Shown here: positions 33,694 through 48,906 of the stretch, piece by piece
How positions within the stretch are numbered: the first letter of the stretch is position 1
How the letters are laid out: every line of letters starts with the position of its first letter
IMG/VR virus record: IMGVR_UViG_3300025424_000017
Coordinates: 1-48,906 of that record
Source: a virus
Direction: 5' to 3' (one strand)
DNA length: 48,906 bases
The notes under the pieces: model-generated
What the model was told of the DNA's origin: nothing
What the model saw: the letters and a program-made list of their open reading frames with translations, nothing else
Databases searched by the model: none
Made by a program: the position numbers and the translations under genes

Positions 33694-33840
33694 ATGACGG
33701 ATAAAAAACCCACAACAAATAACAACGCCACACAGCCAAACCCTCGTCGTCCTGATGAATTGGGCAGTGTGTGGTTACAGGCGCATCTGCGTATCACGGA
33801 TCCCAAAACTGGTCAAGTCATAGTGGAGAAATCAGCATGA
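33694..33840 (+). CDS. Small protein, partial paralogue of the next gene's N-terminus
   Basis: A 48-residue frame (ATG 33694, preceded by AAGG) with a Lys/Asn/Pro-rich start and then LQAHLRITDPKTGQVIVEKS. The last part parallels the N-terminus of the next protein (VQGFVRIHDPHTGEVLVDKR): RI.DP.TG.V.V.K. The stop overlaps the next ATG as ATGA, so the two are coupled. Real coding is supported by the overlap, the paralogy and the lack of a better use for the space. Role unknown; perhaps a small capping subunit for the same structure. Confidence 0.7.
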   Translation: MTDKKPTTNNNATQPNPRRPDELGSVWLQAHLRITDPKTGQVIVEKSA

Positions 33841-34480: not shown

Positions 34481-35716
34481 ATGTCATACACCATAACTCT
34501 AACAGACGGCGCAGTTTTTGCCACCGTGGCAGATGGCACCATCAACACTGCCAGCTCAATGACTTTGGTTGGTAAAAATTATGCCGGTTATGGACAATTT
34601 TTAGATAACAATTTCATGCGTTTGTTGGAAAGTGCGTCGAATTCGACTGCTCCAGTAGCGCCAATTACTGGTCAGTTATGGTGGAACAACACACCCAATG
34701 CTGGTGTGCTTTCGATCTACATGGGATCAGCCTGGAAAACCCTGGCTGCACTGGTAGTCAGCAGCGCAACTCCTAGCACCAGTACCTACAGCAACACCGG
34801 CGACATGTGGTACGACACTGTGAACCAACAGGTCAATATCTGGACCGGTAGCAAATGGTTGTTGATTGGACCGCAATTTACGTCCGGCACCGGAGTCACC
34901 GGCGCATTTGCCAATGTTATAACTGACAGCAATTCTATAAGCCACAAGGTCATTGAACTCACGGTCAACAGCACCGTGGTTGGCATTATCAGCGAAGACA
35001 GCACTTTTACTCCACAGACTCTTATCACAGGATTTGCCAACGTGAATCCAGGACTGCAATTGGCCAACACAGTGAATGGTGTGGGCGGTGTCAGTGTGCC
35101 ATCATTTTGGGGACAGGGCAATTCCGGAGTCAGCGTGACTGGCAATATCTCGGGTGCCTACATATTTGGTAACGGAAGCACATTGAGTGGAATAACCACC
35201 AGTTTGCCGACCTATACCGGCAATCTGCAGGTCGGCAACATAACAAATGCCAACGGCAACGGTGTGGGCAATATCGGAAACAGTGGTGCATATTTCAATA
35301 CTATATTTGCTCGTGCCACCAGCGCACAATACGCTGACGTGGCCGAACGATTTGCAACCGATACCGAATACGAAGCCGGAACAGTGGTTGAATTGGGAGG
35401 CACAGCCGAAATTACCAAATCTGTTCAAGAATTAAGCGAAACTGTGTTTGGGGTCATAAGTACCCAAGCAGCTTATTTGATGAACAGTGGCGCTGGCACA
35501 GATGCCACTCATCCACCGGTTGCAATAACCGGTCGAGTTCCTGTAAAATGTACAGGAACAGTGACCAAAGGTGATAGGCTGGTCAGTGCCGGCAACGGTA
35601 TAGCCAGAGCAGCTCAACCGGGTGAGGCCACAGCGTTTAATGCCATAGGGCGTGCGCTGGAAGACAAAACAGATCCAGGTCTGGGTATGGTTGAAGCCAT
35701 AGTCATGATCAAATAA
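34481..35716 (+). CDS. Tail-fibre-like protein with C-terminal YADVAE domain
   Basis: A 411-residue protein. Two short repeats near the N-terminus, GQLWWNNTPNAGVLSIY and GDMWYDTVNQQVNIWTGSKW, match the G..W.......L.[IV]W.G..W pattern frequent in tail fibres. A long beta/glycine-rich middle leads to SAQYADVAERFATDTEYEAG and a C-terminal module (VFGVISTQAAYLMN, VPVKCTGTVTKGDRLV, GRALEDKTDPG) seen on fibres of T4-like marine phages and related to intramolecular-chaperone/peptidase-G2 type ends. It probably contacts the host surface. Self-cleavage cannot be judged. Confidence 0.75.
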   Translation: MSYTITLTDGAVFATVADGTINTASSMTLVGKNYAGYGQFLDNNFMRLLESASNSTAPVAPITGQLWWNNTPNAGVLSIYMGSAWKTLAALVVSSATPSTSTYSNTGDMWYDTVNQQVNIWTGSKWLLIGPQFTSGTGVTGAFANVITDSNSISHKVIELTVNSTVVGIISEDSTFTPQTLITGFANVNPGLQLANTVNGVGGVSVPSFWGQGNSGVSVTGNISGAYIFGNGSTLSGITTSLPTYTGNLQVGNITNANGNGVGNIGNSGAYFNTIFARATSAQYADVAERFATDTEYEAGTVVELGGTAEITKSVQELSETVFGVISTQAAYLMNSGAGTDATHPPVAITGRVPVKCTGTVTKGDRLVSAGNGIARAAQPGEATAFNAIGRALEDKTDPGLGMVEAIVMIK

Positions 35717-35734: not shown

Positions 35735-36700
35735 ATGACATACAGCACCGGCAACCTAATAGCAGCAACCGATTACAATACTTTTACCTCGGGTATCAAC
35801 ACTCCGTGGAATACCTACTACGGTCAGACTGCATTGGGCACAGTGGCCACAGGTGGCACAGTGACCGCGGTGCAATGGGACAGTGTGGTCAATACCATAG
35901 CCAGTCTGGGCAATCATCAGCCGACCACGATCACGTCGAGATCAGCCCCCACAGCAGGTACTACTATCGCAGCCTTGGCCAACGTGCAAACTGACATTAC
36001 CAATACAAGCAACAACTATCTCAACGCTTACGCAGTAGGCAGCCAATACACAGCTTGGACTGGGACCAGCAGCAAAACAGCTGCCACCGGATCTGGTAGT
36101 GCGGCCTGGAACATAACTTTTACTCACACCATGACTTTTGCCAGCACAGCGGCCATGGGGTATTTCTTTTATGCCGGTGGCTACGTACAACTGCAATTTG
36201 GTAAAAGCAGCACAGGCACAGTGGCCGATACTGAATGGAACACGTTTATTGGAGCCAACGGCGCTGGTGGTGTAGTGGCTGGCAAAGTCATATTCACCAG
36301 TTCCAGTACCAGCAAAACCATTGCTTCGGTAGCATATACTGGTACCAACAAGACCGGCGGAACAGGGACACCTAGTGTGTTAGCTACCGGTATCGGGTTC
36401 GCTCAACTCACTGGATCAGCACAGACTATTTACACACAGTATGACACCGGCACAGCTTACAGCGGTAACTATGTGACCATAACAGCCTATACCAGTGGAT
36501 CCACCATAATCTTTACCACAACCTGGCATGACAACGGTGATACCAATCCGGGGTCAACTGCGCAGATTTCGGGTGGTACAGCCACTTCGGGAACCACGTT
36601 CGGTACTGCACCGACCACGATCTTGACCTATTATCCACCAGAAACCACGTACTTGACCAACTCGTGGGGAACTCCCACAGTGGCCGCTACCACAGCCTAA
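35735..36700 (+). CDS. Glycine/threonine-rich appendage protein, probable tail fibre or tip
   Basis: A 321-residue protein. The N-terminus (NLIAATDYNTFTSGINTPWN, then TYYGQTALGTVATGG) looks like an attachment module. The body is rich in Thr, Gly and Ser, with alternating beta pattern (WNITFTHTMTFASTAAMGYF, FYAGGYVQLQF, NTFIGANGAGGVVAGKVIF). TAGGAAC lies upstream of ATG 35735. It has no recognisable enzyme motif. It is the last gene of the plus-strand late block and probably a fibre or distal tip. Confidence 0.65.
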   Translation: MTYSTGNLIAATDYNTFTSGINTPWNTYYGQTALGTVATGGTVTAVQWDSVVNTIASLGNHQPTTITSRSAPTAGTTIAALANVQTDITNTSNNYLNAYAVGSQYTAWTGTSSKTAATGSGSAAWNITFTHTMTFASTAAMGYFFYAGGYVQLQFGKSSTGTVADTEWNTFIGANGAGGVVAGKVIFTSSSTSKTIASVAYTGTNKTGGTGTPSVLATGIGFAQLTGSAQTIYTQYDTGTAYSGNYVTITAYTSGSTIIFTTTWHDNGDTNPGSTAQISGGTATSGTTFGTAPTTILTYYPPETTYLTNSWGTPTVAATTA

Positions 36701-36713
36701 CAGGGTCAAAATA

Positions 36714-36729
36714 GCCAATATTGCTTGGC
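36714..36729. repeat. Inverted repeat overlapping the -35 element
   Basis: GCCAA and TTGGC flank a six-base loop. The right arm is most of the -35 hexamer. There is no T-run after it, so it is not a rho-independent terminator; a repressor or activator site is possible. The arms are only five bases, so chance is not excluded. Confidence 0.35.
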
Positions 36730-36753
36730 AAATACAATCATGTAGTGTATAAT
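36725..36753 (+). promoter_or_regulatory. Near-consensus sigma-70 promoter upstream of the accessory array
   Basis: TTGGCA (36725-36730, five of six bases of TTGACA), a 17-base spacer, then a perfect TATAAT (36748-36753). Predicted start is near 36760, right at the ATG of the next gene. The -35 lies in a GCCAA...TTGGC inverted repeat (36714-36729), and the -10 lies between CATGTA (36739-36744) and TACATG (36753-36758), so both could serve as operator sites. It is the only clear host-type promoter I found in the window. Confidence 0.75.
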
Positions 36754-36759
36754 ACATGT

Positions 36760-37065
36760 ATGGACACTGACAATTTGATCGCACATGGCCGCACAAGATT
36801 TGAACATGCGGCTGCACGCAGGACTCTCAAAGAAAAATATCAAGGTCGTATGACTTTTGCCTATCAGGGCGGCATGTGGCGTGCTGGTCCTGAGTTACAA
36901 AACACATTGTTGACCTGTCCCGACACAGAAGCAGTGTTGCTGGATTTGTATGAAACACCGGTCAAGGTCCAAACCCGAGAGCTGATGACATTGAGTCAAC
37001 AACGCTGGCAAGAACAAATGACGGCTTGGTTGATCGAACACGAACAGCTGAATCAAAATCGATGA
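36760..37065 (+). CDS. Small conserved phage protein of unknown function
   Basis: A 101-residue protein, start at ATG 36760 (MDTDNLIAHGRTRFEHAAAR). It is predicted helical and charged, with MTFAYQGGMWRAG, LLDLYETPVKVQTREL and a C-terminal QRWQEQMTAWLIEHEQL helix. The compact pattern looks like proteins I recall from uncultured T4-like phages, with no assigned role. The predicted transcription start of the sigma-70 promoter falls at this ATG and no Shine-Dalgarno sequence precedes it, so it may be translated from a leaderless message. Its stop overlaps the next gene's ATG as ATGA. First gene of the accessory array. Confidence 0.75.
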   Translation: MDTDNLIAHGRTRFEHAAARRTLKEKYQGRMTFAYQGGMWRAGPELQNTLLTCPDTEAVLLDLYETPVKVQTRELMTLSQQRWQEQMTAWLIEHEQLNQNR

Positions 37066-37865
37066 CCCAGGGTGTTGTGATATTTGCCTACAATTCAGAT
37101 CAGCTGGACTATATGGCCTTGGCCGCATGGAGCGCCAACAACATACACCGACACCTGGCTGTGCCGGTCACAGTCATAACTGATTGCGATCATGTTCCTG
37201 AGTCTTACCAATTTGATCAGGTCATACAGGCCACCAGATCGGGCACTGCCACCAGGTACTTTGCCGATCTTGATCGTACAGTACCCTGGTACAACGGCAA
37301 CAGGATGTCGGCCTACGAGCTGTCGCCCTACGATACTACCTTGGTCCTGGACGCCGATTATGTGGTGACCAGCGATCAGTTGGCCTGCCTGTTCGACAGT
37401 CGCCAGGACTTTGTAGCACACGATCTGGCCTACGACGTGACCGGACGAGACAATTTTGATGAACTCAACTGTTTTGGACGCTATCACAATCCCATGACCT
37501 GGGCCACAGTCATGTGTTTTCGGCGCAGCGATCATGTCGGATTGATATTTGAAACCATGGGCATGATTCGAGACAACTGGGATCATTATCGTGCTGTGTA
37601 CGGCATTGTTGATTCAAACTATCGCAATGATTTTGCCTTGAGCATGGCCTTGGGTGTGGTCAATGGTCACGTGCAGACCAACACCAGTATCCCCTGGAAG
37701 CTGGCCACAGTGACACACCAGCATCAATTGAGCCAGCTGTCGCAAGATCGGTACCGAGTGGACTGGAAGACCTCGGACAACCATGCCCGCTGGATCACGC
37801 TTGCGACTGATTTCCATGCCATGGGCAAACGATACCTAGGAGACATAGTTGCCAATCCTTGCTGA
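37062..37865 (+). CDS. GT-A-fold glycosyltransferase-like protein
   Basis: A 267-residue protein, start at ATG 37062 overlapping the previous stop. The N-terminus TQGVVIFAYNSDQLDYMALA resembles the donor-binding strand and loop of GT-A enzymes, and TTLVLDADYVVTSD carries a DxD-type motif (LDAD near residue 103). Later FGRYHNPMTWATVMCF and a basic-aromatic C-terminus follow. It probably transfers a sugar from a nucleotide donor in the host cytosol; acceptor unknown. First of three GT-A-like genes in the array. Confidence 0.7.
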   Translation: MTQGVVIFAYNSDQLDYMALAAWSANNIHRHLAVPVTVITDCDHVPESYQFDQVIQATRSGTATRYFADLDRTVPWYNGNRMSAYELSPYDTTLVLDADYVVTSDQLACLFDSRQDFVAHDLAYDVTGRDNFDELNCFGRYHNPMTWATVMCFRRSDHVGLIFETMGMIRDNWDHYRAVYGIVDSNYRNDFALSMALGVVNGHVQTNTSIPWKLATVTHQHQLSQLSQDRYRVDWKTSDNHARWITLATDFHAMGKRYLGDIVANPC

Positions 37866-38622
37866 ACGCGGCTATCTTATACCGGCCATCAACACTGAAT
37901 CTGTGGACTATGTGGCCTGTGCCCAGCAATTGGCACGATCTATTAGACAATGGCATCCGTCGGCCAACATTTCGGTCATCACAGTAAATCGATGCAGTGA
38001 TCCGGTATTTGATCATGTGATTCCATTGCCGCATGGCGATCTTGAAGGATACGTCAACGATTGGCAATGCTTTGACGCCAGCCCTTATCGACAGACCATC
38101 AAGCTGGAAGCCGACATGTGGTGTGCAGGTCCAATTGATCATTGGTGGAATCTTTTTGAGTTACGAGATGTGGTGATCAGCCGTGGATGTAGAAATTTGT
38201 ATGATCAGCCGGCGCAGTCCAGATCTTACAGAAAGATATTTGATCAGAATCATTTGCCAGATGTGTACAATGCTGTGACCTACTGGCGTGTGAGTAGACC
38301 AGCCCGACAATTTTTTGCCACGGTGCGTGACATATTTGAAAACTGGGCCAGTTACCGACGTGTTTTGAAATTTGCCGACGAGGCTCCTACCACCGACGTG
38401 GTCTATGCCATGGCTGCTGTGATACTGGGTCCCGAGTCGGTCATGTTGCCCGCAGGTCTGGGTCCCAGCATAGTGCATATGAAACAGCACATGATCGGAC
38501 TGCTTGGTGACGATTGGACCCAAGAACTGGTAGCCGAGCAGACCATGCCCGGATTGCGCATCAACACCGTGGCCCAATGGGGACTGGTACATTATCATGT
38601 CAAAGAGGCATTCCGTGACTGA
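37849..38622 (+). CDS. GT-A-like glycosyltransferase, second copy
   Basis: A 257-residue protein starting at TTG 37849, supported by AGGAG six bases upstream (37838-37842). The start (LPILAERGYLIPAINTESVD, then YVACAQQLARSIRQW) parallels the previous GT. The DxD position reads TIKLEADMWC, so the motif is E-A-D rather than D-x-D, which might change metal use. The rest (VYNAVTYWRVSRPARQFFAT) matches the N...Y.R core. The first 17 bases lie within the previous gene. Class well supported, specificity unknown. Confidence 0.65.
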   Translation: MPILAERGYLIPAINTESVDYVACAQQLARSIRQWHPSANISVITVNRCSDPVFDHVIPLPHGDLEGYVNDWQCFDASPYRQTIKLEADMWCAGPIDHWWNLFELRDVVISRGCRNLYDQPAQSRSYRKIFDQNHLPDVYNAVTYWRVSRPARQFFATVRDIFENWASYRRVLKFADEAPTTDVVYAMAAVILGPESVMLPAGLGPSIVHMKQHMIGLLGDDWTQELVAEQTMPGLRINTVAQWGLVHYHVKEAFRD

Positions 38623-38950
38623 ACTGACTGAACAAGACTTCTGGCGCAGCCTACAACGATTGCGAGATCACGAACCGCCGGTGCCGGTATATAGATTGTA
38701 CTATGATGATGCAGGAGTTCCGCTTTTCTACAGCCAGGAACATCTGCCCGGTAATTATATAGAACTTGACGTTGATGTATGGCACGCAGGATCTTTCAAT
38801 CTACGCATACAGGATGGAATTATACAGTATTTGCAGCGACCAGCACCACCAAGATTACAACCCGAAGATTCAGGAACAGCCTGCGATCCTAGAGATATAT
38901 GTGTGGTGGTCACCCAAGACCGACCACACAAGAAATGGAGTTTGAGATGA
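38615..38950 (+). CDS. Small conserved phage protein of unknown function
   Basis: A 111-residue protein. I prefer GTG 38615, because AGAGG lies six bases upstream (38604-38608) and it overlaps the previous stop; an ATG 18 bases earlier lacks a good site. Features: TEQDFWRSLQRLRDHEPPVP, then VYRLYYDDAGVPLFYSQEHL with PGNYIELD, and DPRDICVVV near the end. The pattern LPGNYIE(L/V)D followed by CDPRD(I/V)C seems conserved in related aquatic phages. No known domain. It lies between glycosyltransferase-like genes, so a role in the same pathway or as a regulatory subunit is possible. Confidence 0.75.
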   Translation: MTELTEQDFWRSLQRLRDHEPPVPVYRLYYDDAGVPLFYSQEHLPGNYIELDVDVWHAGSFNLRIQDGIIQYLQRPAPPRLQPEDSGTACDPRDICVVVTQDRPHKKWSLR

Positions 38951-39876
38951 AACGTATTGACATAGCTGATCTTGATTGTATTTTTCTCACCTACGACGAA
39001 CCCGACCGCGAAGAAAACTGGGCACGCATACGCAACCAGATTCCGTGGGCTCGTCGAGTAGACGGAGTCAAAGGATCGGACGCTGCACACAAGGCCGCAG
39101 CAGAGGCCAGCAACACCGAACGATTTGTCTTGATCGATGGCGACAACATGCCGGATGAAAGTTTTTTCAATCTTACTCTGGAGTTGCCCACTGCCGAGTG
39201 GGAATCGGCAGTGTTTCGTTGGCGTGCTAGAAATCACGTAAATGGTCTCATGTACGGCAACGGCGGACTCAGTTCGTGGACACGAACTTTTGCAAACACC
39301 ATGCAGACTCACGAAGCCACAGATGGCCGTACCGAAACCCAAGTGGAGTTTTGTTTTGATCCACAATACTGGGCCATGCACGATTGCTACAGCACTACCT
39401 ATCCCAACGGATCGGCATTCCATGCCTGGCGTGCCGGATTTAGAGAAGGCGTCAAAATGTGCCTGGATCAAGGGCGTAGACCCAGCATAGCCGAATTCCA
39501 GGATCGTGTGCATCACAGAAATCTGGACCATTTGACTGTATGGCACAACGTGGGTCGCGATGTGGAACACGGTATCTGGGCCATGGCCGGTGCCAGGATG
39601 GGCACCTACATGACCATGATCACGCCCGCCTGGGATTATCGAACTGTGCAGGATTTTGATGCTTTGGAAAAATTATGGCACACAGTGAAAGATTCGGACC
39701 CCGAGATCCTGGCCGGACGTGTGGCCGAAGACTTGGTCACCCAGCTGGATTTACCGATCAACATGATGGGACCAGGCGAAAGTGCATTCTTCAAACAACA
39801 CTATCTCAGCAATTGGCACAATCGCGGAGTCATGGTCAGAGAGATTGATATAATACGACAACAGGAAGGCTGGTAG
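38947..39876 (+). CDS. GT-A-like glycosyltransferase, third copy
   Basis: A 309-residue protein, start at ATG 38947 (MKRIDIADLDCIFLTYDEPD), preceded by GGAG and overlapping the previous stop as ATGA. The text REENWARIRNQIPWARRVDG and RFVLIDGDNMPDESFF gives an IDGDN metal site (DxD) in the usual place. Segment FRWRARNHVNGLMYGNGGLS and WAMHDCYSTTYPNGSAFHAW with FREGVKM follow. The family looks like glycosyltransferases I recall from T4-like aquatic phages. It probably uses a nucleotide sugar and a divalent metal; acceptor unknown. Confidence 0.75.
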   Translation: MKRIDIADLDCIFLTYDEPDREENWARIRNQIPWARRVDGVKGSDAAHKAAAEASNTERFVLIDGDNMPDESFFNLTLELPTAEWESAVFRWRARNHVNGLMYGNGGLSSWTRTFANTMQTHEATDGRTETQVEFCFDPQYWAMHDCYSTTYPNGSAFHAWRAGFREGVKMCLDQGRRPSIAEFQDRVHHRNLDHLTVWHNVGRDVEHGIWAMAGARMGTYMTMITPAWDYRTVQDFDALEKLWHTVKDSDPEILAGRVAEDLVTQLDLPINMMGPGESAFFKQHYLSNWHNRGVMVREIDIIRQQEGW

Positions 39877-39878
39877 CC

Positions 39879-40400
39879 GTGATTAAAAAATTAAAACTAA
39901 ATTACGATTTCGCTGAAATATTGTCGGCTGATTACAGCCAGCATACTGGTAGTTGTATCAAGCATCAAATATACGAAGTGAACGATATACATGAACAGTA
40001 TGGGGGTTTTCCGCAATCTTATTGTCTAGAAAACACCATGATTCACCAACTATGGTGGAATTCAACTCAATTGGACTTTGATCAAATTGGTTGCCAACTG
40101 GGGATGGAAGTTATTACTATCAGCAGCATACAACAGCCGCCGGGATGTATGATTCCCATACATCGAGATACCTTTTTTCAAATCAACCAACGCTATCCTG
40201 ATCGTTCGGAATTAAAAGTACGGGCCAACATACACCTCGAAGATTGGAAACTGGGGCATTTTATACAATACAACGATGTAGTACATACGCACTGGAACGC
40301 TGGTGACGTGTTACTATGGGATAACCAGGTCCTGCATCTTTCGGCCAATGCTGGTATGCATCACAAATACACCTTGCAGGTTTCGGGATTTTTGATTTGA
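39879..40400 (+). CDS. 2OG-Fe(II) oxygenase-like protein
   Basis: A 173-residue protein with GTG start 39879 and AGGAAGG nine bases upstream. The double-stranded-beta-helix metal set is visible: PIHRDT gives His95 and Asp97, and NQVLHLSAN gives His153. A basic residue after it (HHKYTLQVSG, Lys163) could bind 2-oxoglutarate, although arginine is usual there. Between them are RANIHLEDWKLGHFI and HWNAGDVLLWDN. Close in style to aspartyl/asparaginyl hydroxylase-type enzymes. It would oxidise a metabolite, protein or sugar in the pathway. Base composition here is more AT-rich than the flanking genes. Confidence 0.7.
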   Translation: MIKKLKLNYDFAEILSADYSQHTGSCIKHQIYEVNDIHEQYGGFPQSYCLENTMIHQLWWNSTQLDFDQIGCQLGMEVITISSIQQPPGCMIPIHRDTFFQINQRYPDRSELKVRANIHLEDWKLGHFIQYNDVVHTHWNAGDVLLWDNQVLHLSANAGMHHKYTLQVSGFLI

Positions 40401-41350
40401 CAAAATTTGACATCATTCCGGCCAGCAATTACATTTGGAATCAGCTAGAACTAATTGATTTCCTGGTCCAGAATCAACAACGCGATATAGTATTGACAAC
40501 CAATTCAGAAGGCTGTTGTTGCCGTGCGATTGGGTTATATGATCTATTAGATAAGTTTCGGTTTCAATCGGTCACAATAGTTACTAGCAATCCGGTTGAA
40601 CAGCATGATCATTATCAAATCAAATTGACAAGACAATGGAATTTTTTATCTGTATCGACTGCAATAGAAGATCGGTATCATTGTTGGAACAAGCACAGAA
40701 TTTTTGGAACCATATATGGTCGACCTCTCTGGCACAGGATTGGCATCGCATCGCATTTGTTAGTGCATCATCGCCAGTTGAGTCTAATAGGCTGTCGTGC
40801 CAATACTGGCGAGGCCGACGACAGAGAATTATTTGAGGTGTCTCAGTTGTTCCAGCATGATCCTGACAGTTTGCAAAAATTTTCCAGTAACTGGCAACAG
40901 TTTCCTATGTTGCTCGAAAATCTAGACAGATATACGCCCGGACAACAAAATACCGACGGTTATATATCACAGACCAAGCGTGTTTATGCAGATTTTTTGA
41001 TCGACATTGTGGCAGAAACCTTCACCGACGGTGATTGTTTTTTTGTAACAGAGAAGACTGTGAGACCCATGATGTTAAAAAAACCATTTATTATATTTGG
41101 ATCCAAAAACTATTTGTTATATCTGCGTCGCATGGGATTCAGGACATTTGCAGATTTCTGGAACGAAGACTACGACGGCTACGAGGGTCGAGAGCGATTC
41201 GTTAGAATATTGTATCTGATTGACAGCTTGGCACAAAAATCCAAGGACGAACTTGAACGCATGTACTGGGACATGCAGTATTCTCTTGATCATAACTACA
41301 ATTTGCTGTATAATCAAACTTATACCAACAGTATCAATCCTATACCATGA
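40397..41350 (+). CDS. Two-motif glycosyltransferase-like protein (family B)
   Basis: A 317-residue protein, start TTG 40397 overlapping the previous stop as TTGA. A weaker motif 1 (IYGRPLWHRIGIASHLLVHH) sits near residue 110. Motif 2, DCFFVTEKTVRPMMLKKPFI then a LRRMGFRTFADFWNEDYD stretch, matches 4382-4957 almost step for step. The C-terminal pattern ERMYWDMQYSLDHNYNLLY is also shared. A single-frame relative of the split family A gene. The resemblance to GT10 is remote, so a sugar-transferase role is a guess. Confidence 0.6.
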   Translation: MTKFDIIPASNYIWNQLELIDFLVQNQQRDIVLTTNSEGCCCRAIGLYDLLDKFRFQSVTIVTSNPVEQHDHYQIKLTRQWNFLSVSTAIEDRYHCWNKHRIFGTIYGRPLWHRIGIASHLLVHHRQLSLIGCRANTGEADDRELFEVSQLFQHDPDSLQKFSSNWQQFPMLLENLDRYTPGQQNTDGYISQTKRVYADFLIDIVAETFTDGDCFFVTEKTVRPMMLKKPFIIFGSKNYLLYLRRMGFRTFADFWNEDYDGYEGRERFVRILYLIDSLAQKSKDELERMYWDMQYSLDHNYNLLYNQTYTNSINPIP

Positions 41351-42762
41351 CCAACAAAGGTGACGAAGTCACAGCCGAGTTCAAAAGCGGATTCCTAGAC
41401 AGTGCTGAACACATGCACAAAGCTCTGGGTACGGGTTTGTGCTTGGCCAAATGGAAACAGGTCAGCTTGCACTTGCCCACCGGCCTAAACAATAGCTGTT
41501 ATCATCCGCCCTTGCATGCTATAGATTCTACATTATTGGCAGGCAATCCTGCAACCTTGCACAATACACCATACAAAAAAGCTCAGCGCAAGATCATGCT
41601 CAAACAAGAACGTCCTGCAGAATGCAGCTATTGTTGGAGCATGGAAGATGCTGGCAAATTAAGTGACCGTCACTATAGATCCGGTGAATCCTGGGCTGCC
41701 ATGGATTTTGAAAAGATAATGCATTCAACCGGAGATGAAGATGACATTGTTCCTAGTTATGTTGAAGTTAATTTTAATCATGCCTGCAATCTTTCTTGTA
41801 GTTATTGTAGCCCACAATTTAGCAGCACCTGGGCGCAAGAGGTGGAACGTTGGGGAGGGTATCCTACATCAACGATTCACAATGATTCTAGTCATTTTGT
41901 TGGCCGTAATCGCCCTATACCTGCAAGAGAAGCCAATCCATACGTCGACGCCTTCTGGTCTTGGTGGCCAAACCTGTATCCTGAGCTGAAACATTTCCGT
42001 ATGACCGGCGGCGAGCCCATGCTGGATCGCAATACCTATCGGGTGTTTGATTATGTGTTGGCCAATCCCAAACCAGATCTGCATCTCAATGTGACATCCA
42101 ACTTCAGTGTAGACGAACGGTCATGGCAACGCTACAAGACTGCTGTCAAACAGATCTGCGCTGGCGAAAACGTCGAACACTTCATGCAATATGTGAGTCT
42201 AGACTCGTGGGGGCCACAGGCCGAATATATCAGACACGGACTGGACTTCAATCTGTTATGGGATCGGGTAAACCAGTTCTTGACCGAGATACCAGGTCGT
42301 AACAGTATCACGTTCATCGTGACCATGAACAACTTGTCAGTCACTGGACTGGGCAGTCTCATGGCCGGCATCCTGGGTCTTAGGAAACTGTACAGCACCA
42401 CCTATCAGCGTGTGTGGTTTGACACTCCGGTCTTGCGAGAACCTGCCTGGCAAAGCCTGCAGATTCTGCCCGAAAGCTATTGTGATCAACTGGAACGTTT
42501 ATGGGTCTGGATGAGCAAGCAGGCCGAAACCGAATCCACACGCTTCCAAGGATTCAAGGATTATGAACTGGCCCGTCTGGATCGAGACATAGCCTGGATG
42601 CGTGATGGACAGAAGCTGGATCCGGCCTACATCAATCAACAGAAGGCCGACTTTTATAGGTTTTTTACGGAAGCTGATCGCAGACATGGCACAGATTTTT
42701 TGACAACCTTTCCTGAAATGGCCAGCTGGTGGAACGAGTGCGGGTATCATGCCAAAACATAA
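41347..42762 (+). CDS. N-terminal-twitch radical SAM protein, subtype I
   Basis: A 471-residue protein. Residues ~30-105 form an N-terminal twitch/half-SPASM-like part with cysteines in LNNSCYHPPLHAI and ECSYCWSMEDAG. The radical SAM motif CNLSCSYC gives Cys147, Cys151 and Cys154, followed by FSSTW; the SAM-binding MTGGEPMLDR lies near residue 220. It will bind a [4Fe-4S] cluster and use SAM to make the 5'-deoxyadenosyl radical. The twitch half may carry a second cluster for substrate. Substrate unknown. Pairs by sequence with the 44951 protein. ATGA overlap with the previous gene. Confidence 0.9.
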   Translation: MTNKGDEVTAEFKSGFLDSAEHMHKALGTGLCLAKWKQVSLHLPTGLNNSCYHPPLHAIDSTLLAGNPATLHNTPYKKAQRKIMLKQERPAECSYCWSMEDAGKLSDRHYRSGESWAAMDFEKIMHSTGDEDDIVPSYVEVNFNHACNLSCSYCSPQFSSTWAQEVERWGGYPTSTIHNDSSHFVGRNRPIPAREANPYVDAFWSWWPNLYPELKHFRMTGGEPMLDRNTYRVFDYVLANPKPDLHLNVTSNFSVDERSWQRYKTAVKQICAGENVEHFMQYVSLDSWGPQAEYIRHGLDFNLLWDRVNQFLTEIPGRNSITFIVTMNNLSVTGLGSLMAGILGLRKLYSTTYQRVWFDTPVLREPAWQSLQILPESYCDQLERLWVWMSKQAETESTRFQGFKDYELARLDRDIAWMRDGQKLDPAYINQQKADFYRFFTEADRRHGTDFLTTFPEMASWWNECGYHAKT

Positions 42763-43804
42763 GATAGGCATACTGGATTTTGACCCTTTGGTCAATCTAT
42801 TGCCAGGCGCCCGCAAATGTTTTTTAGATATCACTGCATTGAGCCACAATGAACTGTTGGATACTCTTTCGTCTCTGGACACAGCATTCGACAGCATGAT
42901 CCTGTCCACAGTGGATCATTGGCACAACTATGAACAAGAACAGGAAATCTTTGATCACCCGGTACTGAAAGACAAACTGGTATTCTTGCAAACACAGACT
43001 TATCAAAATCAGTATTTGGGGCACAACTGTTGGCGACTCAGTTATCCCAGTTGGTATCTAAACCGTCATAGCCAATATCGGCAATCTCCTGGCTTGCGCG
43101 AATTCCGTATCAAGCCCAAACAGTTACCACGCGGATTTGGGTGCCTGAACAATCGTCCGGCTCTGCATCGTTTATTGTTGGGAACGGCGCTGAACAATCG
43201 CGGATTGCTGGATCAGATGATATTCACGCAAAACAACACGCAAGCGATGTGTCACACCAATCCGGTATATCCAGCTGGTTGCATAGATCCACAGTGCAAT
43301 GAAGATCCTGGTATACTAGATTCTGTTCTGGGTTGGTACGAATACTTGCGACTGTTGCCGATCAAATGGCAAAATCAAGCGATACAAAATCAGCATTGCG
43401 TGTATCACGACGCCGAGATCAACACTTACTGTAATATCTTGACCGAAGCCACAACTGGACGCATACCATACAATCTTGATATCAATCTTCCTGAAATAAG
43501 CGAAAAAAGTCACAAGCCGTTTGTGAGTGGACAAATTCCTTTGTATCTGGCTGCTCGGGGACACACTGCCTATCTACAAGGACTAGGATTTGAAGTCATG
43601 TCAGATCTTACACCTGCAGGGTTCGACGATCTTGGTACATTGGATCGAATCCAGGCCATCGTGGATGTGGTTGCTCGGGGTCGAGACTGGATTGAAAATT
43701 TTTATTATGATCACATCAAAGAGATACAACACAACCACGAGCTGGTATTTGCGCACAAGACCGATCAAATTATATTGCAACGCATACAGGAAGTGGTAGC
43801 ATGA
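42749..43804 (+). CDS. Two-motif glycosyltransferase-like protein (family C)
   Basis: A 351-residue protein containing motif 1 (RGFGCLNNRPALHRLLLG and the following NNRGLLDQM) near residue 130 and a more divergent motif 2 (EISEKSHKPFVSGQIPLYLA, then YLQGLGFEVMSDL). It keeps the SEK..KP step but differs from families A, B and D beyond it. An N-terminal domain of ~125 residues carries LDTAFDSMILSTVDHWHNYE and TYQNQYLGHNCWRL. Predicted cytosolic, with no signal peptide. Proposed sugar transferase, unproven. Overlaps the radical SAM gene by 14 bases. Confidence 0.6.
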   Translation: MPKHKIGILDFDPLVNLLPGARKCFLDITALSHNELLDTLSSLDTAFDSMILSTVDHWHNYEQEQEIFDHPVLKDKLVFLQTQTYQNQYLGHNCWRLSYPSWYLNRHSQYRQSPGLREFRIKPKQLPRGFGCLNNRPALHRLLLGTALNNRGLLDQMIFTQNNTQAMCHTNPVYPAGCIDPQCNEDPGILDSVLGWYEYLRLLPIKWQNQAIQNQHCVYHDAEINTYCNILTEATTGRIPYNLDINLPEISEKSHKPFVSGQIPLYLAARGHTAYLQGLGFEVMSDLTPAGFDDLGTLDRIQAIVDVVARGRDWIENFYYDHIKEIQHNHELVFAHKTDQIILQRIQEVVA

Positions 43805-44958
43805 TCGGCCATCGCAAGCTGATATTGGACACATTCAGTGAAGTATCGGACCTGTTAAAACCCTGGGCAGATGCTGAATTTTGGGATTTTGCCACTCATG
43901 ACATTGTGCCCGGCGCGGTGTATCTGATCAGTCGAGAACAGTTCAATCTCAACGTGCCTCGCATACGAGAACTGGCCGAGTCGAGCACGATCATACCCAT
44001 CTTGAGCAATCCCATGGAAGGGTCAGACACCATGAGATGCCATGTTGAAATGGTCACACACATGGATGATCTGGCTCGTGCTGGCAAACTGTTGTTGATT
44101 TCGGGCGGAGAAATGGATGCAACCTGGCCATACTTGTTGTATGATAACTTCTTGCCCAAGATCTTGGACTATGAAGAAAATCTGGTCCAGATAGATCGTG
44201 GACGAGAAATTTTTACCAAAATTGACAAACCTTACCAATTCCTATTTCTCAACGGACGCATACGGCACCACAGAAAGTATCTGTTGGAACTGTTCCGTCA
44301 TCGTGGACTATTGGATTCGGCCCTGTGGACCAATTTGGATCCAAGACCGGCCACGTTCCACCCATTGGTATTGCCTGATGCTGTCAACATCAACTGTTGG
44401 GACCATACTGTATTTCCGTTGCAACAGTTGCCACCGCAATACGAAGTGGATCGATATCGTGATCGAGTAGACACTGTGTCTCCAGACACTGTGCGAGATC
44501 TTTATGCCAAATATCACCTGTTCAACGATGAATGGGGAGATATCTATCTCAATGCCGATCCCTACATCGACACCTATTTCAGTGTGGTGACCGAAACAGT
44601 TTTTGAGTATCCTTACAGTTTCCGTACAGAAAAAACCTGGAAGCCAATGGCCATGGGCCACCCTTGCGTGTTTGTGAGCAATGCTGGCTACTACAGAGAT
44701 CTACACAATCTGGGATTTCAAACCTGGGGACACCTGATCGACGAAAGTTTTGACACCATACACAATGTGCAAGATCGAATCGATCGCGTGGCGCAGGTGG
44801 TCGAGGATCTGTGTCAGCAGAATCTAGCCAGTTTCTTGAGTACTGCTCAAGATGTATGTAAATACAATCAACAGCACCTGGCTCACATGCGCACTCAAGT
44901 GCGTGCTGAATTTCCTGAACGCTTTTTCCAATTCTTAAAAAAATACATCAATGAATGA
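43801..44958 (+). CDS. Two-motif glycosyltransferase-like protein (family D)
   Basis: A 385-residue protein and the clearest two-motif member. Motif 1 is YQFLFLNGRIRHHRKYLLEL then RHRGLLDSALWTNLD (~residues 140-180). Motif 2 is TETVFEYPYSFRTEKTWKPM then GHPCVFVSNAGYY and LGFQTWGHLIDESFD (~260-320). Its N-terminal ~110 residues (VYLISREQFNLNVPRIRELA, LLLISGGEMDATW) look like a separate Rossmann-like part. As the most complete copy, it shows that the two frames at 4382-5492 should be one protein. ATGA overlap with the 42749 gene. Confidence 0.65.
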   Translation: MIGHRKLILDTFSEVSDLLKPWADAEFWDFATHDIVPGAVYLISREQFNLNVPRIRELAESSTIIPILSNPMEGSDTMRCHVEMVTHMDDLARAGKLLLISGGEMDATWPYLLYDNFLPKILDYEENLVQIDRGREIFTKIDKPYQFLFLNGRIRHHRKYLLELFRHRGLLDSALWTNLDPRPATFHPLVLPDAVNINCWDHTVFPLQQLPPQYEVDRYRDRVDTVSPDTVRDLYAKYHLFNDEWGDIYLNADPYIDTYFSVVTETVFEYPYSFRTEKTWKPMAMGHPCVFVSNAGYYRDLHNLGFQTWGHLIDESFDTIHNVQDRIDRVAQVVEDLCQQNLASFLSTAQDVCKYNQQHLAHMRTQVRAEFPERFFQFLKKYINE

Positions 44959-46288
44959 TCTAGAATTTCGCCAACAGGTCTTGGACACCAAGAGTGCCAG
45001 CTTCTGTGCAGCCAAATGGTACAATGCCACCATATGGTTGGGGTCCGGACAAACCACCAGTTGCCATCATCCCTTACCACATGCGATTGATCGCGAAGAA
45101 ATACGGATTAATCCTGCTGCCATACACAACACGGCCCGTAAAAAATCTGAACGTGCAGAAATGCAGTCGGGTCAACGCCCTGCCGGTTGCGAGTACTGCT
45201 GGAAGATCGAAGACATGGGCAGAGATGCTGTCAGCGACCGTGTGTACAAAAGTCGTATCTATTCCCAACAGGACCTTGATCAAGCCTATCGCACACCCAG
45301 TGACCGAGACGTCAATCTTAAAACCTTGGAAATTGCGTTTGATCGTACATGCCAGTTTGCCTGTAGTTATTGCAATCCGGCCTTCAGCAGCACCTGGGTA
45401 AATGATATTAAAAAACACGGACCCTATCAAGGTCTGGTCAGCGACGGTCGAAATCATTTTACTCATGCTCACGACAATGCTCAATTGTATCGATTTGGTG
45501 AGCCCAATCCGTACGTGGACGCATTCTTTGCCTGGTGGGAAAGTGATTTGCATAAAACCTTGCAAGAACTAAGGATCACAGGTGGCGAGCCACTCATGAG
45601 CGGAGAGACCTGGAAACTGATCGACTGGTTTCGGTCCAATCCTGGACGCAGCCAGACCCGTTTGGCCATCAACAGCAACCTAGGACATGCGGTAGACGTT
45701 GATCGCTTGTTGTCCAGCACGCAAGGACTCGAACTGGACATTTACACCAGCCAAGAAAGCGTAGGCCTGCAGGCCGAATACATCAGAGATGGCCTGGACT
45801 ATGCAGCCTGGGTTGCAAACATGATGAAATTGATTGAAAGCAAACAGTTGCGAAGTCTGCATGTGATGTGTACTGTCAATGCCCTATGCCTGGACCGGTT
45901 ACCGGACCTTCTAACTGTGTTCATGCGTTGGAAACACCAGCATGGACGTGACTTTCCTAACTTTACCCTCAACATCTTGCGATTCCCTAGTTTCCAAAGT
46001 GCGTTAGTATTGCCCGAGTCCCATCGTCGAGCACACAGTGATCGATTGCGGACCTGGTTGGATCAATGGGGCACCGATGACCTGTTACAAGAACACGAAC
46101 GCCGGCATGTACAACGGCTAATAGATTACCTGGACACAGTTGACTCTCCGCATGCGCAAGCATTTGATCCACCGTCTTTGTTGAATGATTTCAAACAGTT
46201 TTATTCTCAATACGATCAACGTCGCGGAAAAGATTTTGTATCCACATTTCCCAACCTGAGGACCTGGTATGAGTCATTATCAATATAA
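44951..46288 (+). CDS. N-terminal-twitch radical SAM protein, subtype I
   Basis: A 445-residue protein, like the 41347 protein in architecture. The N-terminal twitch-like part has FCAAKWYNATIWLGSGQTTS and CEYCWKIEDMG; the catalytic motif CQFACSYC gives Cys134, Cys138 and Cys141, then NPAFSSTW; RITGGEPLMSGETW is the SAM-binding GGE. It shares with its partner the IHNTARKKSERAEMQSGQRP-type segment. It overlaps the 43801 gene by eight bases and the following gene by 20. Substrate unknown; repeated use of this subtype suggests sequential modifications. Confidence 0.9.
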   Translation: MNDLEFRQQVLDTKSASFCAAKWYNATIWLGSGQTTSCHHPLPHAIDREEIRINPAAIHNTARKKSERAEMQSGQRPAGCEYCWKIEDMGRDAVSDRVYKSRIYSQQDLDQAYRTPSDRDVNLKTLEIAFDRTCQFACSYCNPAFSSTWVNDIKKHGPYQGLVSDGRNHFTHAHDNAQLYRFGEPNPYVDAFFAWWESDLHKTLQELRITGGEPLMSGETWKLIDWFRSNPGRSQTRLAINSNLGHAVDVDRLLSSTQGLELDIYTSQESVGLQAEYIRDGLDYAAWVANMMKLIESKQLRSLHVMCTVNALCLDRLPDLLTVFMRWKHQHGRDFPNFTLNILRFPSFQSALVLPESHRRAHSDRLRTWLDQWGTDDLLQEHERRHVQRLIDYLDTVDSPHAQAFDPPSLLNDFKQFYSQYDQRRGKDFVSTFPNLRTWYESLSI

Positions 46289-47531
46289 CAGCGCAGATCT
46301 AGCTCGACCGGTTGAACTCGACAAACGCGAACAATTCTTGTTGCGAGACAGTAAAACATTCTGCATCTATCCCTGGATACATCTGCACGCCTATCCTACC
46401 GGAGAAGCTTATCCTTGTTGTCATGCTGAAATGGGTGTGGGACAAGTGGGCAATTGCCGCACCCATACCCTGGAAGAAATTTATCGATCGCGACCCATGG
46501 ATCAGTTGCGTGACAACATGCTGAATGAAACACCCTCACTGGCTTGTCAACGTTGCTACGAACAAGAAGAATCTGGATTTTTTAGTGGTAGGAAAAGTGC
46601 CAACAAACATCATGGCCATCATATCAAACGTATTGCCGATGACCAATTCCGCATGAGCTATTGGGATGTCAGATTCAGTAACCTGTGCAATCTCAGTTGT
46701 AGAAGTTGTGGGCATATATTCAGCAGCAGCTGGTACCAGGATCAGGCTCAATTGGCTGGCGGCGACTGGAAGGAAAAAAACAAAGTTTTAAATTATGCCG
46801 GACGTACCGAGACCGACATGTGGAAACAGCTGATACCGCATCTGGATTACGTGGAGCAGATCTATTTTGCTGGCGGTGAGCCACTCATGATGAAAGAACA
46901 CTACAACATCCTGGACGAGCTGGAACGTAGAGGTCGATTTGATGTGCGCCTGATCTACAATACCAATTTTACTCATACCAGTCTCAAAGATCGCACAGTA
47001 TTTGATTACTGGCGACGATTTGACAGTGTGGCTGTTGGTGCCAGTCTGGATGCTATGGGTACTCGTGCAGAATATATCAGAAAAGGCACAGTGTGGGACA
47101 CAGTAGAGCGCAATCGCGAGCAAATGCTTGAAACATGTCCTGATGTAGATTTTTACATCAGCCCCACGCTCAGCATCCTGAATGCCTGGCACTTGCCAGA
47201 CTTTCATCGTGACTGGGTCAATCGTGGCCTGATTAGACCGCAAGATCTAAATGTAAACATTTTACAAGATCCTGCACATTTACGCATTGACATCGCTCCT
47301 GCCTTGTACAAAGCAAAACTGTCTGAAAAATTCAGCGAACATATTGAATGGTTGCGCCCACAGGATCCATTGCAACGAGCCACAACCGGATTTGAAAGTG
47401 CCTGGAGATTCATGATGGCCACAGATAATTCCAAGCTGATTCCTACGTTTTGGAACAAGACATTTGAACTGGATCGTGTCAGGAAAGAAAGTGTGTTGTC
47501 TGTGATTCCGGAATTGGCTGGGCTAGTATGA
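46269..47531 (+). CDS. N-terminal-twitch radical SAM protein, subtype II
   Basis: A 420-residue protein. The N-terminal half-SPASM begins TFCIYPWIHLHAYPTGEAYP, then CCHAE, LACQRCYEQEESG. The radical SAM motif CNLSCRSC gives Cys140, Cys144 and Cys147, then FSSSW; the glycine motif is FAGGEPLM. Related to the 47528 protein rather than the subtype I pair. GAGG lies seven bases before ATG 46269, within the end of the previous gene. Enzyme class firm; reaction unknown. Confidence 0.9.
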   Translation: MSHYQYNSADLARPVELDKREQFLLRDSKTFCIYPWIHLHAYPTGEAYPCCHAEMGVGQVGNCRTHTLEEIYRSRPMDQLRDNMLNETPSLACQRCYEQEESGFFSGRKSANKHHGHHIKRIADDQFRMSYWDVRFSNLCNLSCRSCGHIFSSSWYQDQAQLAGGDWKEKNKVLNYAGRTETDMWKQLIPHLDYVEQIYFAGGEPLMMKEHYNILDELERRGRFDVRLIYNTNFTHTSLKDRTVFDYWRRFDSVAVGASLDAMGTRAEYIRKGTVWDTVERNREQMLETCPDVDFYISPTLSILNAWHLPDFHRDWVNRGLIRPQDLNVNILQDPAHLRIDIAPALYKAKLSEKFSEHIEWLRPQDPLQRATTGFESAWRFMMATDNSKLIPTFWNKTFELDRVRKESVLSVIPELAGLV

Positions 47532-48733
47532 TAACGCCACATGATCAATTCTGTGTACTACCCTGGGTCAGTTTGGAGACCAGCCCAATTGGTACAGTGA
47601 GACCCTGTTGCTTGGCCGAACACGAGTTGGTCGACAATGCCGGAGAAAAATTCAATCTGGCACAGGCCAAATTTACTGCAATACAGGACAGTGACAGCAT
47701 GCGCAAATTGAGACAGCAGTTTCTGGCCGGTGAACGACCTGACACATGCGGCAAGTGCTGGAGAGAAGAGGATGCTGGTCGTACCAGCAAAAGAATGCAC
47801 ACCTTGGACAGACTCAAGCACATGATTCCTGATCAGGAATGGACCGAGGATGCTAGACCTCTCATGTTTCTGGACCTCAAGTTGGGCAGTATATGTAATC
47901 TCAAATGCAGGATCTGTGGGTCATGGAGCTCGAGCACATTCGCCACTGAAGAGCTACAGGCCTTGCCGGTGGACCAACGACGTGGCAGTTTCCATCATAA
48001 AATGTTGCGAGCCGGTGCCTGGCCCAGAGAAAATGAATCGTTCTGGGCTGAACTGGATCAGGTGTCGGATCAGATACGTTATATTGAATTTACCGGCGGT
48101 GAGCCATTCATGATTCAAGAACATTTTGATCTGTTGCATGATTTGATTGCGCAGGGCATCGCTGGTCAAATTGAGATACATTACAATACCAATGGTACTC
48201 AATGGCCCGAGCAAGGCGAAGAGATCTGGCGCTATTTCAAAAAAGTTGAGATAGCATTCAGCATAGACGATGTGGGTGCGCGATTTGAATATCAACGATC
48301 AAATGCTGTGTGGATCGAAGTCTGTGCCAACATACAAAAATTCCAGGACATGCGTGATCGGTGTTGTAACATCGAACTTCAGGTGTGTACCACAGTGAAT
48401 GTGTTCAATGTGTATTATCTGGAAGAAGTGGCCAACTGGATCATGTTGCAAGGATTTGATTTTGTGTATTGGAACATGATGCATGATGCTCCATATTTCA
48501 GCATCAGCACCTTGCCCGATTTGGCCAAACAGGCAATCTCGGCACAGTTGAGATCGGCGCAGGTGGACGCTCGCACACGACAAGAATTTGACAATATTGT
48601 GGATTTTATGTGTCGTGGAAGCAGTCTAGATGGTTCCCTATTGCGCATGAAAATTGCCGAGCTTGATCGTAGACGCAATCAGCATTTGAAAAATGTACAA
48701 CCAGAATTGGCCAGGCTGATCGGCTATGAATAA
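47528..48733 (+). CDS. N-terminal-twitch radical SAM protein, subtype II
   Basis: A 401-residue protein. The N-terminal part reads FCVLPWVSLETSPIGTVRPC then CLAEHELVDNAG and TCGKCWREEDAG. The cluster motif CNLKCRIC is Cys123, Cys127 and Cys130, then GSWSSSTFA; the SAM-binding segment is EFTGGEPFMI. It pairs with the 46269 protein. The start overlaps the previous stop as ATGA. The fourth such enzyme in a row within 7.4 kb. Confidence 0.9.
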   Translation: MITPHDQFCVLPWVSLETSPIGTVRPCCLAEHELVDNAGEKFNLAQAKFTAIQDSDSMRKLRQQFLAGERPDTCGKCWREEDAGRTSKRMHTLDRLKHMIPDQEWTEDARPLMFLDLKLGSICNLKCRICGSWSSSTFATEELQALPVDQRRGSFHHKMLRAGAWPRENESFWAELDQVSDQIRYIEFTGGEPFMIQEHFDLLHDLIAQGIAGQIEIHYNTNGTQWPEQGEEIWRYFKKVEIAFSIDDVGARFEYQRSNAVWIEVCANIQKFQDMRDRCCNIELQVCTTVNVFNVYYLEEVANWIMLQGFDFVYWNMMHDAPYFSISTLPDLAKQAISAQLRSAQVDARTRQEFDNIVDFMCRGSSLDGSLLRMKIAELDRRRNQHLKNVQPELARLIGYE

Positions 48734-48906
48734 ACCAACCATGATTGTACCACCGTCTGCTGGATCTTATGTGCTGTATGATTTCTTGAAATCTCAGTTC
48801 GACGTGGTGCAATATGATCCCGACACACAATACGACAAACTGAACTGTTTGGCTCTGGTGGGATTCCGCAACGACCATGACTGGTGGAAACAGTTGTATC
48901 AAGACG
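48726..48906 (+). CDS. Partial gene cut by window edge, unassigned
   Basis: Starting at ATG 48726 (overlapping the previous stop by eight bases), 60 residues are visible: MNKPTMIVPPSAGSYVLYDF, then LKSQFDVVQYDPDTQYDKLN and a short rest. Too little for assignment. Its coupled start shows that the array continues beyond this window. Confidence 0.55.
   Translation, partial: MNKPTMIVPPSAGSYVLYDFLKSQFDVVQYDPDTQYDKLNCLALVGFRNDHDWWKQLYQD

Follow-up and report, generated by a model that had tools for sequence, protein, structure and literature searches.

We describe a gene cluster at the right-hand end of IMG/VR virus record IMGVR_UViG_3300025424_000017, a complete record of 48,906 bases that was analysed over its whole length (the window) and represents a fragment of a T4-like jumbo phage. 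The cluster brings together N-twitch radical S-adenosylmethionine (SAM) enzymes, glycosyltransferase-like proteins and a carbamoyltransferase, and directly follows a tail module whose last gene, t4, encodes a threonine-rich protein. The gene set is real, widespread and ordered, and it is larger than the first-pass annotation of this DNA had described, with a likely target that can be named. It most probably constitutes a glycan pathway, and we lean slightly towards one by which the phage itself glycosylates a virion protein, t4, with radical epimerisation and carbamoyl capping.

The window encodes a late sigma factor, SbcC/D, and gp25-type and baseplate-wedge-type genes, followed by a 4,411-aa protein and three further tail-module genes; the baseplate wedge protein is nearest to those of the 121Q, Rak2-type and Atu_ph07 jumbo phages (~32-35% identity). 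Directly behind the tail-module genes lie thirteen plus-strand open reading frames (ORFs) between coordinates 36760 and 48733, and by these coordinates 11 of the 12 junctions overlap by 4-26 nt. Six of the overlaps are of 4 nt, five of these being ATGA, and the g5/g6 junction with its 2-nt gap is the only non-overlapping one. A sigma-70-like promoter (TTGGCA-17-TATAAT, 11 of 12 consensus positions) lies at 36725-36753 on the plus strand just 5' of the g1 start codon at 36760, so that the thirteen overlapping same-direction genes behind a host-type promoter are as first annotated. This promoter is the top-scoring of 30 promoter-like sites but is singled out by score and position only and not by the number of sites, which is 24.7 +/- 5.1 in shuffled sequences. 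The features are as follows, with the type of evidence in parentheses.

20414..33649, plus strand: t1, giant 4411-aa protein, first of the four upstream tail-module genes (ORF)
33771..34445, plus strand: t2, 224-aa tail-module protein (phrog_11259)
34481..35716, plus strand: t3, 411-aa virion/fibre-type protein (PHROG virion structural and tail-fibre matches)
35735..36700, plus strand: t4, 321-aa threonine-rich protein, proposed substrate (composition; linkage to g1, g2, g3 and g5)
36725..36753, plus strand: sigma-70-like promoter (11/12 match)
36760..37065, plus strand: g1, small conserved protein of 101 aa (45/46 distinct full g5-anchored loci)
37062..37865, plus strand: g2, putative GT-A-type glycosyltransferase (invariant D95 and D97; g3 homologue)
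37849..38622, plus strand: g3, paralogue of g2 (invariant E87 and D89; phrog_1903, 2.6e-6)
38597..38950, plus strand: g4, small conserved protein of 117 aa (conservation across loci)
38947..39876, plus strand: g5, putative GT-A-type glycosyltransferase (invariant DGD; mean column identity 77%)
39879..40400, plus strand: g6, 2-oxoglutarate (2OG)-Fe(II) oxygenase-like protein, accessory (sub-threshold Pfam matches; 2/48 loci)
40397..41350, plus strand: g7, GT-B-family protein, variable (20/48 loci)
41347..42762, plus strand: g8, N-twitch radical SAM enzyme (NF033640, 291 bits)
42749..43804, plus strand: g9, divergent GT-B-family protein, accessory (2/48 loci)
43801..44958, plus strand: g10, GT-B glycosyltransferase (AlphaFold2 model, VIA matches)
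44951..46288, plus strand: g11, N-twitch radical SAM enzyme (NF033640, 290 bits)
46269..47531, plus strand: g12, N-twitch radical SAM enzyme (NF033640, 380 bits)
47528..48733, plus strand: g13, N-twitch radical SAM enzyme (NF033640, 336 bits)
48726..48906, plus strand: g14, 5' part of a GT-B-family gene (complete at L012:12458-13408)
L012:14668-15720: g16, cyclophilin-like protein (predicted structure)

The window end at 48906 cuts the operon, which is continued by contig L012, identical to the window across 12,638 bases. This supplies the sequence that the first-pass annotation lacked and adds g14 (GT-B family), a fifth N-twitch radical SAM enzyme (g15), the cyclophilin-like g16, a NodU/TobZ-type carbamoyltransferase (g19), and g20, g21 and g22; g20 and g21, both of the GT-B family, are on the opposite strand. 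No match was found in an Rfam scan of L012, and a tRNA search of the window found none. The single ORF of t1 probably encodes a giant adhesin or fibre. The -10 box of the promoter ends 7 nt before the g1 ATG, a spacing from which the g1 message may be leaderless.

Scans of IMG/VR with four cluster genes or t4 show how widely and how regularly these genes travel together. Related stretches were confirmed for g12 (180), g16 (at least 539), g5 (at least 594) and t4 (at least 567), and the best 80 loci of each of these scans were retained. Gene labels are best hidden Markov model (HMM) or BLAST hits, so labels of paralogous radical SAM genes may be swapped. The order was examined in 246 phage loci fetched with g10, g12, g16 and g5, which form 158 groups without a shared identical core protein, using the longest locus per group and counting those plus-strand ORFs that exceed set scores (300 bits in the case of radical SAM genes and g5). 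At least four core genes are present in 156 groups, and 155 of these non-redundant loci keep a single order, t4-g1-g2-g3-g4-g5-g8-g11-g12-g13-g15-g16-carbamoyltransferase, which rules out chance. The sole deviation (L148) has an additional g11-type copy at the end.

The content of the loci divides into constant and variable parts. For the g12-anchored tallies four contigs that are the same as or near-identical to that of L012 (L005, L006, L007 and L011) were excluded, loci were deduplicated by protein sequence and short ones dropped. All 48 distinct full-flank loci so obtained contain g8, g11, g13, g15, g16 and the carbamoyltransferase, with g12 in 47 and g5 in 45; g2 and g3 are present in 41 each, g4 in 38, g10 in 37 and g1 in 29, the 5' genes being cut off by flank ends. 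Variable members are g7 (20), g14 (19), and g6 and g9 (2 each). Among 46 distinct full g5-anchored loci, g3 is present in 46, g1 and g8 in 45 each, g2 in 44, g12 in 42, g11 in 41, g13 in 40 and g4 in 36, and the number of radical SAM ORFs per locus ranges from one to seven, five being the commonest (21/46). The 43 distinct g16-anchored loci all have g12 and g15, with g13 and the carbamoyltransferase in 42 each, g11 in 41 and g8 in 39. Genes g1 to g5 accompany fewer or different radical SAM genes in L224, L256, L261, L262, L265, L266, L268 and L269, and several of the contigs bearing the cluster are 337-364 kb long. The core thus behaves as one fixed unit, to which a changing set of glycosyltransferases is added. 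The first-pass annotation had allowed that the families might prove to occur in random combinations, which the core order contradicts, and its dedicated joint pathway is supported for this ordered core but not for g6 and g9, which are accessory, or for g7, which is variable.

When 50,697 phage records were searched by tblastn, there was no match for g5 or g10 at E 1e-5 or for t4 at E 1e-3, and for g8 and g13 the phage collection yielded no more than weak relatives, in Vibrio phages K566 and K567 and one marine contig. In K566 (L091, 155844-174743) four ORFs are weakly similar to g12/g13, three of them annotated as radical SAM, and their neighbours are ORFs without assigned function, a PagP-like gene and a nicotinamide phosphoribosyltransferase gene; by this resemblance the region is a possible distant analogue of the cluster.

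Outside the operon, t4 is closely tied to the enzymes. Its product contains 23.1% threonine and 9% serine and no cysteine, compared with 9-13% threonine (maximum 12.7%) in seven other virion-type proteins of the window. Of the 80 g5-anchored loci, 79 have one or more tail-module genes upstream, and 77 have t4 itself; the lone exception begins at g2, at a contig edge. A t1 homologue is present upstream of the cluster in 58 of the 80, within flanks of up to 10 kb. Of 84 t4 copies in these loci, 83 are followed within two ORFs by g1, g2 or g3. The linkage is equally evident from t4 itself: among 80 loci fetched with divergent t4 sequences, all 65 with more than 4.5 kb downstream contain g1/g2/g3/g5, and 62 of these 65 have a radical SAM gene within the flank. 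Whether the virion protein t4 is the glycosylation target we regard as evenly balanced.

All five radical SAM enzymes exceed the curated 170-bit cut-off of the NCBIfam model NF033640 (N_Twi_rSAM), with g8 at 291, g11 at 290, g12 at 380, g13 at 336 and g15 at 285 bits, which bears out the annotation of four such proteins (g8, g11, g12 and g13) within the window. The CxxxCxxC motif, the N-terminal twitch cysteines and GGE are invariant in all distinct sequences longer than 380 aa and more than 45% identical to the reference copy (g8, 64/64; g11, 62/62; g12, 65/65; g13, 62/62; g15, 60/60), and the loss of cluster ligands that would have spoken against the first-pass interpretation is thus not seen in them. 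Cysteines outside the cluster motifs are also invariant in phages (g8 C465, g11 C313, g13 C287 and g15 C273), and these are retained in bacterial relatives, of which those of locus L092 (see below) are 34-50% identical: g8 C465 in 3/3 readable sequences (a fourth is gapped), g11 C313 in 3/3, and g13 C287 and g15 C273 in 1/1 each. By comparison, g8 C271 is invariant among phages but absent from the bacterial relatives, and g11 C307 is variable. In the twitch enzyme HygY, one extra cysteine reportedly sets the epimerase apart from a dehydrogenase. The retained extra cysteines therefore hint at epimerase chemistry, as expected of radical epimerases of the HygY type, and judged from these sequences it is possible, somewhat short of even, that the N-twitch enzymes are radical epimerases. 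The twitch part of the g12/g13 profile matches BtrN weakly (E 0.0056).

The AlphaFold2 model of g10 (pLDDT 93) has a two-domain GT-B fold. Its best matches in VIA are a glucosyltransferase (Z 13.3, 4.6 Å, 273 residues), an alpha-1,3-fucosyltransferase (Z 12.6, 4.2 Å, 262) and T4 BGT (Z 12.3, 4.8 Å, 281), and we take the 50 rows listed (Z 10.4-13.3 over 252-298 residues) to be glycosyltransferases. Foldseek alone gave no match for this model at E 0.001, and no Pfam family was matched by g7, g9 or g10 at E 0.1, including the GT10 fucosyltransferase family (PF00852). By HMM comparison g7, g9, g10, g14, g20 and g21 form one family, with g10 matching g20/g21 at 99.9% in hhalign; within a set of 20 proteins g7 matches g10 profiles at 1e-20 to 1e-21 and g9, the most divergent, does so at 5e-15 to 2e-7. 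The three proteins first grouped as a two-motif transferase-like family (g7, g9 and g10) are therefore correctly placed together. The paralogues g2 and g3 are homologous (hhalign 98.9%), and g5 is unrelated to the g2 family by the same method (7%). D/E-x-D metal-type motifs are invariant in g2 (D95/D97), g3 (E87/D89) and g5 (D64-G65-D66), and from these motifs the three are putative GT-A-type glycosyltransferases; no Pfam family was found for them at E 0.1 save one sub-threshold match of g2.

Among the remaining enzymes, g19 is a member of the carbamoyltransferase family, over the gathering scores for both PF16861 (Carbam_trans_N, 148.7 vs 27) and PF02543 (C domain, 128.8 vs 24), and it scores 121.7 bits against the NodU equivalog NF041651, under the 1000-bit cut-off. 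The 2OG-type Pfam matches of g6 lie below their cut-offs (PF05118, 14.0 vs 22.6; PF05721, 14.3 vs 22), with HxD recognised by eye only, so that its annotation as a 2OG-Fe(II) oxygenase-like protein survives as a resemblance in an accessory gene. The model of g16 (pLDDT 91.5) resembles a cyclophilin-type barrel with a helical insertion (VIA Z 9.4, 143 residues, 3.6 Å, a score that exceeds the tool's caution line of 8 and is under its 13 for helical parts), and by title cyclophilins or peptidyl-prolyl isomerases make up the majority of the top 38 rows. Foldseek alone gave no match for g16 at E 0.001, and it matched no family of Pfam or NCBIfam; nor did sequence-profile searches of the PDB produce a credible family for g16 or for g10, g2 and g5. 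A distant homologue of g16 is present in Halobacteriovorax (L281:9422-10393).

Bacterial relatives place the N-twitch enzymes in a wider setting. Of 116 genomes from the class to which Halobacteriovorax belongs, 58 have NF033640 genes at E 1e-50. Twenty windows around such genes were chosen non-randomly, from the listed matches for contig room and one per genome, and were compared with 20 control windows 48-60 kb distant on the same contigs; L306-L310 are partly homologous and hence not independent. Phage-family profiles (E < 1e-10) identified g5 homologues in six of the N-twitch windows, g2 and g3 in one and a carbamoyltransferase in one, with no matches in the 20 controls. Among 139 neighbours of the bacterial N-twitch genes Pfam recognised Glycos_transf_2 in 8, DegT in 4 and further Radical_SAM domains in 15; among 134 control neighbours there were 3 Radical_SAM matches, and Glycos_transf_2 and DegT are not among the 25 of 189 families listed and so account for at most two each.

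One bacterial contig, in genome G047, contains t4 as well. Its order is an N-twitch gene, a tandem g5-like gene, a viperin-like radical SAM gene, t4, g1, g2, g3, an ORF, g5 and two N-twitch genes, which from t4 to the N-twitch genes is the phage order; the ORF at the place of g4 has no profile match. The neighbouring genes read as the housekeeping genes rplS, trmD, pheS and pheT. The t4 and g2 families each occur in 1 of the 116 genomes, both in G047 and adjoining. The t4 protein matches at 3.4e-35 a profile built from phage sequences alone; profile A11, used on the 116 genomes, includes the G047 protein itself, which inflates its E-value there. No t2 or t3 homologue is present within the 39 kb examined (t1 was not searched for), and t4 beside the enzymes and apart from the tail module is what would be expected of a substrate. 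The viperin-like gene directly upstream of the bacterial t4 (L310:9159-10274) scores 48.9 bits with NF038283, not reaching the cut-off of 180, and it has relatives at the N-twitch/g5 loci L306-L309.

Other bacterial arrangements are more varied. One 40-kb region of Halobacteriovorax has N-twitch genes mixed with GT1 genes, an ABC-2 exporter pair, DegT and a carbamoyltransferase. At L092:6040-18036 (Bacteriovoracaceae UBA6144) eight N-twitch enzymes are grouped; five have their nearest phage counterparts, at 41-50% identity, in g8, g11 (for two of the five), g12 and g15. The g10-family profile matched none of six bacterial genomes. The uncultured Elusimicrobia genome G002 (L093, 2.9 Mb) has 86 N_Twi_rSAM matches at E 1e-3, not all over the cut-off, many of them in long open frames; the three scanned are fused to TPR arrays, in tandem.

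Two further genes stand outside the core.

3413..4378, minus strand: nucleotide-sugar epimerase/reductase-type gene (phrog_540, 2.3e-72; NF047922, 112.9 bits, cut-off of 500 not reached)
L012:20151-21260: g22, downstream of the cluster

The first could possibly supply a donor sugar to the cluster, a link that we infer from its type. The g22 product has tandem aromatic/proline-rich repeats, and longer homologues (L021 and L024) terminate in a g5-like domain. The idea that the radical enzymes might use it as their peptide substrate was set aside, in view of this g5-like end and of bacterial g5-like proteins that match the g22 profile; g22 looks instead like a series of GT-A-like units that have degenerated.

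These observations support the suggestion of the first-pass annotation that a glycan or a glycosylated protein is modified, and make t4 a likely target, the chemistry being a matter of proposal. In the pathway that we propose, the GT-A-type proteins g2/g3 and g5 would attach and start a glycan on t4, and the GT-B family (g10, together with g7, g9, g14, g20 and g21, which differ between phages) would lengthen and diversify it. The N-twitch enzymes would then modify the sugars one after another, their most likely activity being carbon epimerisation with one conserved cysteine as hydrogen donor, and g19 would add carbamoyl caps. Because the cluster is on the same strand as the tail genes and directly behind them, its expression is probably late, and because the decorated protein would belong to the host-contact apparatus, the glycan may tune adsorption or mask the particle. 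The most specific version, in which phage glycosyltransferases build an O-glycan in the cytosol on the threonine-rich tail protein, five radical epimerases in relay alter it at one carbon after another and carbamoyl groups cap it, the whole forming a radical sugar-editing line portable with its substrate gene, is put forward tentatively, with rather less than even confidence.

In the main rival reading the enzymes would act instead on the host surface, changing lipopolysaccharide or capsule during infection and, for example, excluding other phages, with tail adjacency reflecting a shared host-interaction island. The authors of the pelagimyophage study read the glycosyltransferases of tail-fibre islands in this way in the part of that report available (PMC7029224), the Halobacteriovorax N-twitch genes sit with GT1, an ABC-2 exporter and DegT, and GT-B genes that differ between phages are expected with changing hosts. 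However, the same-strand and near-invariable linkage to the tail module and t4 argues against it, as does the presence of t4 beside g1, g2, g3 and g5 in a bacterium with no t2 or t3 in the 39 kb examined, and no exporter, flippase or polymerase is recognised by Pfam in g1-g22; we consider host-surface remodelling unlikely, while according it some weight. A collection of unrelated auxiliary genes with no joint pathway, which the variability of g6, g7, g9, g10 and g14 might suggest, is scarcely plausible given that four different cluster genes, used as anchors, retrieved non-redundant loci of which all but one keep the core order, and that a fifth anchor shows the t4 linkage.

Modification of a protein or peptide backbone, with N-twitch enzymes epimerising or crosslinking residues of t4 or a fibre and the glycosyltransferases acting separately, would agree with the eight N-twitch enzymes at L092 that lack cluster glycosyltransferases, with a cyclophilin-like g16 that could present a peptide, and with t4 as an obvious protein partner. 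It leaves aside the nine or ten putative glycosyltransferases of the region (g2, g3, g5, g7, g9, g10, g14, g20, g21 and perhaps g22) and its carbamoyltransferase, and the t4 of the window has no cysteine, so that we think it quite improbable. Phage glycosyltransferases can also act on DNA, and T4 BGT is one of the structures that the g10 fold matches; but other GT-B enzymes are just as near to g10 as BGT is, all tied within Z 1 of the top match, the genes come after the virion module, and no base-modifying enzyme is recognised by Pfam in g1-g22, making hypermodification with glycosylated or carbamoylated bases a very improbable role.

Several points weigh against glycosylation of t4 by this pathway. 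Adjacency alone is no proof that t4 is the substrate, and its membership of the virion is presumed from context. The G047 arrangement is a single case, and its contig may be chimeric or a prophage remnant. No cluster glycosyltransferase is found among the neighbours scanned at L092, and the idea that bacterial N-twitch genes always lie in polysaccharide loci was rejected, since in just 2 of 6 genomes does a PF00534 gene lie 20 kb or less from the over-cut-off N-twitch genes (coordinates compared by eye); N-twitch enzymes therefore also act in other settings, without obligatory glycosyltransferases. As to epimerase chemistry, g12 C290 is retained in only 2 of 5 bacterial relatives, the g13 and g15 cases are a single bacterial sequence each, and 23-38% of all alignment columns are invariant in the phage radical SAM sets, which weakens the significance of cysteine invariance. 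The GT-A fold of g2, g3 and g5, although annotated from the start and consistent with the invariant D/E-x-D motifs, is backed by no profile (Pfam for all three, PDB profiles for g2 and g5), and the cyclophilin-like fold of g16 and the small proteins g1 and g4 fit no assigned step.

If glycosylation of t4 is correct, a widespread group of uncultured jumbo phages devotes over 15 kb to decorating one virion protein, and radical chemistry known chiefly from the maturation of antibiotics and peptides is used on a phage virion. This would offer a new way to read virion surfaces and host range of environmental phages from sequence, provide a named substrate and a compact operon for finding radical sugar chemistry, and could account for the scattered, so far unexplained observations of numerous radical SAM genes in the vicinity of phage tail genes.

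The description of the pathway as new is borne out insofar as no published account of the cluster, t4 or its product was found by title or abstract start in the open-licence literature, but the proximity of radical SAM and glycosyltransferase genes to tail genes of phages has received passing mention, to judge from the available sections of three reports (PMC7029224, PMC5332604, PMC12390700). The twitch radical SAM enzymes HygY, NeoN and BtrN of aminoglycoside biosynthesis provide the nearest chemical parallel, acting on sugars or cyclitols. They have small-molecule substrates, unlike the pathway proposed here, their auxiliary-cluster domain is C-terminal, and no close sequence relation to them was found. 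All five cluster enzymes pass the N_Twi_rSAM model, whose name specifies neither reaction nor substrate. Among large DNA viruses, the chloroviruses and giant viruses encode the enzymes that glycosylate their proteins, as outlined in excerpts of PMC4691112 and PMC7019647. Unlike the present phages, these are viruses of eukaryotes. We know of no radical SAM array in either.

Among phages, 332-Vera carries eight radical SAM genes inside a large structural-gene cluster, termed highly unusual in the accessible part of its description (PMC12390700), and a T4-like TARA genome has twelve (PMC5332604, likewise in part); their likeness to the cluster lies in the many radical SAM genes, and the sections consulted mention neither this gene set nor t4 or N-twitch enzymes. 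There is also a resemblance to the host recognition cluster of pelagimyophages, also T4-like aquatic phages, in which a tail-fibre island contains glycosyltransferases, two genomes differ by radical SAM cassettes, and modification of the host O-chain is favoured, as far as the consulted portion of the report describes them (PMC7029224). That island is characterised there as non-syntenic and hypervariable, whereas the cluster described here has a fixed core order, t4, five N-twitch enzymes and a carbamoyltransferase.

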